Part shown: positions 61,607-64,000 of the stretch, piece by piece
How the letters are laid out: each line of letters starts with the position of its first letter
Position numbering within the stretch: the stretch's first letter is position 1
Assembly (NCBI GenBank): GCA_022497155.1
Contig: MU385712.1
Span: forward strand, 805,765 to 869,764
Direction of reading: 5' to 3'
DNA from: Whalleya microplaca
Lineage: Eukaryota; Ascomycota; Sordariomycetes; Xylariales; Xylariaceae
Length of the DNA: 64,000 bases
Program-made: the position numbers and the translations under genes
The notes under the pieces: generated by a model
What the model saw: the letters and a program-made list of their open reading frames with translations, nothing else
Told to the model about the DNA's origin: nothing
Databases searched by the model: none

Positions 61607-64000
61607 CTAGTCGAGAAAACCTGACATCTTCCAAGCCGACACATAAGACCGCACCACTTCATCACTTACTGGCCCTTGCATGGCCATGATCTCAGAATGC
61701 GTACTTGCTCGTTGCGTGTCCAAGATAATACCACCGCAGGCCATGCGTTCGAAGTGGCCCTCGAGAAAGCCGATGACTCGGGCGGCCGGATTCTCCTTCT
61801 CGGAGAGAGGCGACTGGCGAACCCGTTTGATCCAGTCTTGGAAGGGAATGATGCCGTGGGGAGGTATATCAAGGGCGGCTGCCAGAACCGTCGACATATT
61901 CTTCCACGGCTGGCCGACGGGGTTGTCGATGTGATACACCGGGCAAGCCTCCGCCATCCCATCATGATCATTAATTCTCAGCAGATCGACCATGACGCTC
62001 GCGCTTCGATCCACGGGCAGCCAATGCAGCACCCCCTGAAGGTCGGGCCATGCCTTGAGCACCTGGGCGCTTTTCACCAGGAAGGGAAAGTGCTCGACGG
62101 GGTTCCAGACACCGCTGGCGGTCGACCCGGAGATCTGGCCCGGCCGCGCCACCGAGGCCCGGAATAGCCGCGGGTGACGACGCAGTGTCTCCGTGAGCAT
62201 GCGCTCACACACCCACTTACCCTCGTTGTAGCCGCTGGGCATCACCGCGGCCATGGGCACGGGCTGCTCGAGGACGTGGGGCCCGTCCGAGAAGCCGACC
62301 ACGCCGATGGATGAGACGAGCTGGAAACCGATCTTGCGTGGAGCGGTGGTTGTCGCCATGTCGCGCGCTAGGTCCAGTAGGTTACGCATCACCCTGATTT
62401 GGGGCTCGTAAGCCTTGAGCGGCCGTGTGCCACTCATCGGCCACCCGTTGTGGATGATGTGGGTGCCGTGTCGCGCCACCCAGGCATACTCCTCGGCCGG
62501 GAGACCGAGTTGCGGCTTGGAGGTGTCGGTGTCGTACACCCGCAGCTTCGCGCTTGCGGCGGGGGATAGCTTGATGCCTCTTGACAACAACGCATCTGCC
62601 TGCCGCTCGTCGGCCCACACATTGCTGACGGGACGATTGATGCACACGACAGTTGCGACATCCGGCCGCGCGGCGAGGGTTTGGACAAGGTGTGACCCAA
62701 GGCTGCCCGACGCGCCTGTCACAACCACCGCGGCTCCCCTACCGGTGCGGGTGGTGGTGGTACGGTCTGCCGCAGCCTCGAGTAGGGCTGACTCCCATCC
62801 TGTCGTGTAGGCAGCCACCAGGCGCTCTGCCTCTGCCTCACGCGCCGCCACGTCGCCCCTATTAAGCAATTTCGCCTCTGCGGCAGATGCATCAGTTTTT
62901 GAGGCCGGAGCTGACAGGAAGTTAGGGACTAACCTCTTGGCGGTAGTGAAGTCTGACGCGTCATCTGGAGTAGAGATATCAGAGGCTGTGTCATCGACCA
63001 TGACCATGCTGTCACCCTCTCCGGTGACAGCCGAGTCATCGTCGCTCTCGGTGTCGTCGCTAAGATCATCTTCATCATCATCCTCTTGTTCCATACCGGA
63101 CCCCTCTCCGGCCCTAGACAAAGCATTCGATACACAGGCAATGAACTAGCGAAGATTTGTGGCTTCCATCTGCTCGGCCTGGTCGAGTGTACATTTGAAG
63201 GTATTCTCGACCTCGCGTGCCAGCTCCATGCCCATCAACGAGTCAATACCCAGGTCAGCCATCTCGCTATCGAGCGTCATCTCGCTAGCCTCGATACCGG
63301 AAACGTTAGCGACTACATTGCGCACTTCTTCTGTGAGGTCGTGCCTGCCGGTAGCCTTTGCCTTTTTGCTGCTGGCGCTTTGTACCTTTGCATCTGGGCG
63401 GGGACTTCTGGTCTCGACAGACGGGGAAAGGGTGGCAGCAGGAGGGGCAGACGACGGCACAGACCCCGCGGTGCTCCTCACAAACGACTTGTCCACTGTC
63501 ACCCTCGCCAGTATCTTACTCATCGTTGCCTTGGCGACGCGTGCATATCGGAGGCCCATGATGACCTCTTCCAGCGTCCCCGTCGCAGCGTCGAAGATGT
63601 AGACGTCCGTCACGTAGGCCTTGTCGGATTGGCGCGCGTGGCGGGCAAGCACGTGCCAGACAGCGGGACCGTTTTCCCGGCCGTCCGTCACGGTCTGGAC
63701 CTTGGGCGAGCGCATCGTCAGCTCGAGGCCGGTGGCGACGTACATGTCGCTCGTCGGAAGGTCTGTCAGCAGGTTCACGTACATGCCTGCGACCTGGCCG
63801 AATGAGTCGGCCTTGGGGACGTCGAGCCAGGTGTCGCCGCTGTGACGCTTGTGCACGACCCCGGCGCTCTCGCCGTCGCGACCCACCACGGACCGCACGC
63901 CGTGGTACACCGGGCCAAAGTCGACGACGGGCTCGAAGGCCCGGTACACGTTGCGGCCCTGGAGAGCCTCCACACCCTCGTCGTTAGGGCCCAGCTGTAG
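61607..64000 (-). CDS. Non-reducing polyketide synthase, C-terminal part (PT-ACP-reductase), with in-frame TAG
   Basis: The frame enters from the right edge and ends at 61607. First comes the second half of a product-template (PT) domain: [16 protein letters not shown] and [17 protein letters not shown], the latter holding the probable catalytic Asp. Then an acyl-carrier domain follows, [20 protein letters not shown] with the phosphopantetheine Ser. After an in-frame TAG at 63146-63148 the same frame continues through an acidic linker ([14 protein letters not shown]) into a 512-codon segment ending in a thioester-reductase: [14 protein letters not shown] (NADPH), [22 protein letters not shown] (Tyr-x3-Lys). 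There is no methyltransferase domain between ACP and reductase, so the architecture is PT-ACP-R, as I recall for fusarubin-type synthases, which release aldehydes. KS, AT and SAT should lie beyond 64000. If the stop is real, the product lacks its release domain. Confidence 0.88.
63146..63148 (-). other. In-frame amber codon between PKS ACP and reductase
   Basis: TAG directly after EQMEATNLR and before FIACVSNAL, both of which look like normal family sequence in one frame. No splice pair removes it while keeping frame: the nearest candidate (a GTACAC donor ending at this TAG) would be 47 nt and delete conserved residues. The next bases (TTC) do not form a known strong readthrough context. Confidence 0.85.

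Follow-up and report, generated by a model that had tools for sequence, protein, structure and literature searches.

A probable young nonsense allele within the carrier domain of a reductively releasing non-reducing polyketide synthase gene of Whalleya microplaca

Examination of the open reading frames and translations of a 64,000-nucleotide stretch of the Whalleya microplaca genome (the window) placed an in-frame TAG on the reverse strand, interrupting the gene for a non-reducing polyketide synthase (PKS) (Table 1). In the PKS frame 1836 codons precede this single TAG, as against the 512 that follow it; within the window 284 open codons come before it, and the remainder of the 1836 were read from the adjoining contig sequence, where the frame is unbroken back to a start codon, ATG, at G000:C3:874420. 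This reading bears out the preliminary description, which had reported an in-frame TAG with 284 codons before it and 512 after. Neither the pre-stop nor the post-stop piece contains an in-frame stop, their GC3 values are 0.687 and 0.703, respectively, and the stop stands in the context CGC UAG UUC, which is not a homopolymer site. Since the post-stop frame is 91% identical over 510 residues to the corresponding part of the closest relative, it is more than a chance open frame. The GC content is 0.63 over the synthase (window positions 62000-64000) against 0.45-0.49 in the 16 kb before it.

Table 1. Positions of features at the interrupted synthase gene, numbered along the window
Feature	Position	Strand	Basis or remark
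Pre-stop part of the non-reducing PKS	63149..64000	-	SAT, KS, AT and carrier matches; frame continues off the window
In-frame TAG	63146..63148	-	Sequence
Post-stop open frame of 512 codons, bearing the reductase domain	61610..63145	-	Open reading frame and profile match
Frame end of the gene, likewise TAG	61607..61609	-	Sequence
Truncated acyl carrier domain, PF00550, profile 1-61 of 67	63149..63331	-	Pfam
Carrier-domain serine codon, GIDSLM motif	63239..63241	-	Alignment
66-nt intron of P0003, judged false; donor GTCGAG, acceptor AG being the last two bases of the TAG	63146..63211	-	
42-nt intron of P0003, judged false	63060..63101	-	
First ATG downstream of the stop, at codon 18 of the post-stop piece	63092..63094	-	Met here in 1 of 43 relatives
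Acid-rich stretch between carrier domain and reductase	62951..63094	-	Sequence
NAD(P)-dependent thioester reductase, PF07993, profile 1-257 of 258	61994..62722	-	Pfam
Reductase triad: Ser 62312-62314, Tyr 62228-62230, Lys 62216-62218	62216..62314	-	Alignment

Pfam matches in the pre-stop piece comprised SAT, both KS halves, AT and PP-binding, all in one frame, and nearly the whole profile of the NAD-binding-4 reductase was matched in the post-stop piece. No methyltransferase domain was matched anywhere in the synthase by the Pfam scan, and no product-template domain in the pre-stop piece; we infer that a product-template domain is present from the listed relatives, which align over 82-100% of this piece. 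The Ser-Tyr-Lys triad of the C-terminal reductase is kept, with a spacing of 28 and 4, and the same spacing is quoted for XP_658638, a group VII enzyme (PMC5591372). The gene thus has the SAT, KS, AT, carrier and reductase parts of a reductively releasing non-reducing PKS, except that its carrier domain and reductase do not share one uninterrupted frame.

The carrier match stops at profile position 61 of 67, on the last residue of the pre-stop piece, whereas the domain is full length in both relatives scanned by Pfam; in relative P0004 it covers 67/67 positions (residues 1766-1832), and the column aligned with the stop is residue 1827. Placed by this match and alignment, the stop sits inside the predicted acyl carrier domain, five residues before the domain's end in P0004, the closest relative, and therefore truncates the carrier domain itself. 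The earlier placement of the stop exactly in the linker between carrier domain and reductase accordingly fails; the actual linker is probably the acid-rich stretch, which starts about 17 codons past the stop. The serine of the GIDSLM motif is one that we take to be the phosphopantetheine site.

A highly reducing PKS adjoins the broken synthase (G000:C3:884325-892205; L003 and L004), with a 2626-codon open frame and matches to KS, AT, DH, methyltransferase, ER, KR and carrier domains. Beyond the window there are also an FAD-dependent monooxygenase-like gene, a SnoaL-like gene, a flavin oxidoreductase, a fungal transcription factor and an MFS transporter, together with a weak NAD(P)-binding match that falls below its cut-off. 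Judged from gene order and domain content, the layout is that of a two-PKS pathway, in which the broken non-reducing PKS probably works together with the adjoining highly reducing one. The synthase resembles PkhA of Aspergillus nidulans (AN2032; P0060), which has the same kinds of Pfam domains, likewise with no methyltransferase, and is 66% identical over 100% of the pre-stop piece; unlike the gene described here, PkhA is unbroken at the stop column, and the comparison is one of domains and sequence, not of products. The genes pkhA and pkhB have been named together as the PKS genes of one cluster whose final products await discovery (PMC6156440), and alternariol has been linked to pkhA/pkhB (PMC10455296).

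The gene model for this locus, P0003, has 2291 residues and includes the reductase, which it reaches via four GT-AG introns of 30, 36, 66 and 42 nt. The 66-nt intron takes away half of the carrier domain, deleting 21 residues that are kept in 43/43 of the relatives placed in the trees described below, and the carrier match of P0003 falls to 40 of 67 profile positions; the 30- and 36-nt introns likewise delete acyltransferase residues kept in 43/43 relatives, and the AT match of P0003 begins at profile position 56, not 4. The splice donor consensus and the CTRAY motif were used as further intron criteria, and the 66-nt intron matches 0/4 consensus positions at its donor and contains no CTRAY. 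An intron removing the TAG in frame, an option left by the preliminary description, is formally possible, as 4 of the 12 GT-AG pairs that span the TAG at 40-120 nt keep the frame, the one chosen in P0003 among them; the four in-frame donors, however, agree with the consensus at 0 or 1 of its 4 positions, and CTRAY occurs in none of the four introns. Both criteria are weak, as two gaps that separate exon matches in the neighbouring PKS show: there the candidate donors reach 1 to 3 of 4 positions, and CTRAY is found in only some of the candidate introns. It is therefore mainly because of the conserved residues they remove that we judge the P0003 introns to be annotation artefacts, and we consider in-frame splicing across the TAG scarcely credible.

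Relatives were taken as the best 120 of 1995 matches to the pre-stop piece and were compared as protein records, not as DNA; P0003, which comes from the same contig, was left out, giving 119. A residue is present at the stop-aligned column in all 119 (118 by motif, P0029 by inspection), and none has a stop there. Among the matches listed, the closest are 88-92% identical over the pre-stop piece and come from Xylaria longipes, Hypoxylon cercidicola, Xylaria sp. FL1042, Annulohypoxylon maeteangense, A. bovei and H. texense; these three genera belong to the Xylariales, within the Sordariomycetes. A lone lesion in a gene that is conserved elsewhere, at a column where every relative compared has a residue, is also what a base error in the assembly would leave behind, in which case the genome would truly have a sense codon and the gene would be intact. 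Against this, the window contains no N, the TAG is not in a homopolymer, and the long open frames of this gene and its neighbour (1836 and 2626 codons) and of a paralog (2422 codons) argue for good base quality, though they are a biased sample. We regard a base error as unlikely, if deserving of some weight; a fixed change, a polymorphism and a base error alike fit the TAG of a single assembly.

Shared stops were sought with a 1050-residue query, which limited the matches to proteins of about 577 to 1837 residues. There were 98 matches, of which 97 were examined, the 98th (P0146) being an already listed protein with a reductase. The carrier motif was present in 75/97 of these short proteins and in 22/97 it was not, and none of the 75 with the motif ends exactly at the stop column. 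Eight of these 75 end earlier, inside the carrier domain (P0191, P0194, P0195, P0196, P0198, P0237, P0264 and P0263), and P0208 and P0223 end 14 residues past the stop column. P0263 is a piece of a distant synthase (33% identity) on a 5192-base contig and ends in the carrier domain one residue before the stop column; its end may be due to a stop, an intron or the end of the contig. A 497-residue reductase, P0123 (ENA-derived, from a 7131-base contig), is 70% identical over 90% of the post-stop piece and starts just past the stop column, with MSNALARA where others have CVSNALARA; it could be a further interrupted copy, or else an intron or a frameshift may have left it as a fragment. In Lambiella insularis, a PKS with a carrier domain and no reductase (P0086, MMC13_000924) and a 446-residue reductase (P0131, MMC13_000923) are neighbours by number; their sequences seem to place the break in the methyltransferase part rather than at the carrier domain.

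Trees of the pre-stop and post-stop pieces were built from the Whalleya sequence and 43 relatives (P0004-P0047 without P0029). The Whalleya terminal branch measured 0.0605 before the stop and 0.067 after it, a ratio of 1.11 that ranks 13 of 44 from the lowest, the median of the other 43 being 1.36. Changes found in this sequence alone, at columns where eight relatives agree, numbered 11/1236 before the stop and 4/272 after it, compared with 8 and 6 for P0004. At columns invariant in all 43 relatives the sequence departs at 0/494 before the stop and 1/92 after it, and the nine closest relatives, each left out in turn, gave 0 to 4 and 0 to 2 such departures, respectively. By branch ratio, own-only changes and invariant columns, no relaxed constraint was seen after the stop, which is what would be expected of a very young stop and equally so if the post-stop piece were still used. 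Since the reductase triad is kept and the piece has changed no faster than in relatives, the stop would be either young or wrongly called, or the post-stop piece would be in use.

Continued use could mean a split gene, with a free-standing reductase made from the first ATG after the stop and acting in trans; the reductase piece is complete and conserved, and this ATG is in frame 17 codons past the stop. The split would not be a clean one, however, because part of the carrier domain is missing from the upstream product as well; of the 43 tree relatives only one has a methionine at the ATG column, and reinitiation after 1836 codons is unlikely. A physically separate reductase has been reported for DtbA of A. 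niger (PMC5591372), whereas, according to a survey of Hypoxylaceae, no split fungal PKS has been reported to retain function (PMC8403587), and we hold a split gene here to be very unlikely. Ribosomal readthrough of the TAG, giving two enzyme forms as the preliminary description had proposed, would suit a frame and a conservation that continue past the stop. The known fungal readthrough motif is UGA followed by CU, and changing UGA to UAG lowered readthrough (PMC4207609), but the context here is UAG UUC, none of the 119 relatives compared shares the stop, and a stop within the carrier domain would appear to serve no evident use; readthrough is thus still harder to accept, and we consider it highly unlikely.

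The whole assembly (48.1 Mb in 114 contigs) was searched for related copies. No second DNA copy was found, a 701-base query matching only itself; the next-best genome match to the reductase piece is 50% identical, and the best synthase paralog is 48% identical overall, with one partial match of 54% over 414 residues (26 of 125 candidates scored). Because no close paralog was found, and with one lesion rather than many, RIP, earlier suggested as the source of a C-to-T change, is unsupported and was rejected. The genome holds a second reductively releasing PKS (L006, G000:C1:383010-390281), 48% identical over most of the pre-stop piece and open for 2422 codons through its reductase. An altered genetic code was rejected as well, given this open paralog and the termination of the interrupted frame itself at a TAG. 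One TAG counted within the paralog's match falls outside its open frame, probably in an intron.

A different account would be that the UAG is recoded by sexual-stage A-to-I mRNA editing in fruiting bodies, which would confine the full-length, reductase-bearing enzyme to those structures. Editing is reported for almost 9% of the UAG or UAA triplets of Fusarium graminearum, where in 69 genes automated annotation placed the edited stop in a false intron (PMC4817773). Such editing has been called a common feature in Sordariomycetes (PMC11087585), and the closest named relatives here, among the matches listed, are Xylaria, Hypoxylon and Annulohypoxylon. The conservation of an edited stop can be limited to close species (CHE1, PMC11169179), so the absence of the stop from relatives is not decisive. 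The UAG has the favoured U at -1 and G at +1, constraint is kept after the stop, and P0003 hides the stop in a false intron, as with the 69 F. graminearum genes (PMC4817773); this annotation pattern might arise for any nonsense allele. Four DUF726 genes were found in the genome, one of which (L010) carries an MV pair close to the site described as essential in Ame1 (PMC11087585), but the pair is one residue off the published spacing, at D-88/-87 versus D-89/-88 from the published Ame1 residues. The match of another DUF726 gene (L008, G000:C53:5911-6978) contains a TAG and a TAA, which probably lie in an intron.

Other observations speak against editing. An edited UAG would be read as Trp, which is seen at the column in 0/119 relatives compared, as is a stop. 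The A lies in an internal loop in the minimum-energy folds of both a 61-nt and a 101-nt piece, with hairpin probabilities of 0.46 and 0.0, and 197/200 shuffled versions of the 61-nt piece have folds as good or better; the A lies in a hairpin loop only in a 41-nt fold, closed by two pairs, which is not the stable hairpin loop in which an edited A would be looked for. When the 34 TAG triplets of the gene, the stop included, were folded alike, the A was in a hairpin loop in 14, not at the stop, and the minimum-energy fold at the stop was the second weakest of the 34. Of the weak base preferences reported in PMC4817773, the one at -3 is present, and those at -2 and +2 to +4 are absent. A literature search on editing in Xylariales gave one paper, by its title on another subject, and among the papers listed (10 of 37) no report of an editing-gated polyketide synthase was found. 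The gene is like the F. graminearum premature-stop-correction genes (PUK1, CHE1) in having an in-frame TAG in a conserved coding region and a false intron (PMC4817773, PMC11169179), and unlike them in that none of the relatives compared has the stop or the edited residue and the fold is weak. We consider editing of this UAG improbable, and more improbable still that the UAG is a developmental switch by which editing would give the PKS its whole carrier domain and release reductase only in fruiting bodies; if it were, the release step of the pathway would be tied to fruiting-body development.

The TAG is probably a young nonsense allele, that is, a recent, ordinary loss-of-function change in the non-reducing PKS; this reading is favoured since a nonsense change by itself accounts for the data. 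Under it, the gene would encode a reductively releasing non-reducing PKS, of which this isolate's copy was recently inactivated by a single nonsense change within the carrier domain. Translation would end after 1836 residues, leaving an incomplete carrier domain and no release reductase, and with such a product the pathway would most likely be silent. A stop of this kind should be absent from homologs, and so it is among the 119 protein records compared; the relaxed constraint that would be looked for after such a stop is lacking, with the branch ratio at 1.11 and rank 13 of 44. We infer that the product is lost, that the change is recent and that the base was called correctly. Of the options raised in the preliminary description, recent loss of function is the best supported, with no stop at this column among the 119 relatives and intact motifs on both sides of the TAG, whereas a PKS that releases its product without the reductase is weakened as an option, because the truncated protein would also lack the end of its carrier domain. 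If the change is ordinary, one more fungal pathway has probably been lost through a single codon. P0003 looks nearly full length because its 66-nt intron ends on the stop, and genome mining would count the broken synthase as live.

Comparable losses have been described in other fungi. Of 33 secondary-metabolite clusters in A. fumigatus, 23 were reported to carry nonsense or frameshift variants (PMC5711037). A close parallel in kind is pksAC, the ascochitine synthase gene, in which independent nonsense changes in two Ascochyta taxa (Ascochyta lentis and A. lentis var. lathyri) were accompanied by loss of the product (PMC6763771). Those alleles are, as here, natural single-base nonsense changes in an otherwise largely complete PKS gene, with working homologs in sister taxa (PMC6763771); the location of the stop within the protein differs, and for pksAC Sanger sequencing of several isolates confirmed the changes, which were tied to product loss, in contrast to the one assembly available here. 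The gene also resembles the truncated and disintegrated PKS genes of Xylaria hypoxylon and the Hypoxylaceae (PMC8403587), which are defective PKS genes from what is probably the same fungal order. Domains are lost or separated in those cases, whereas in the synthase described here the domains that were found are all in place and a single codon breaks the frame.
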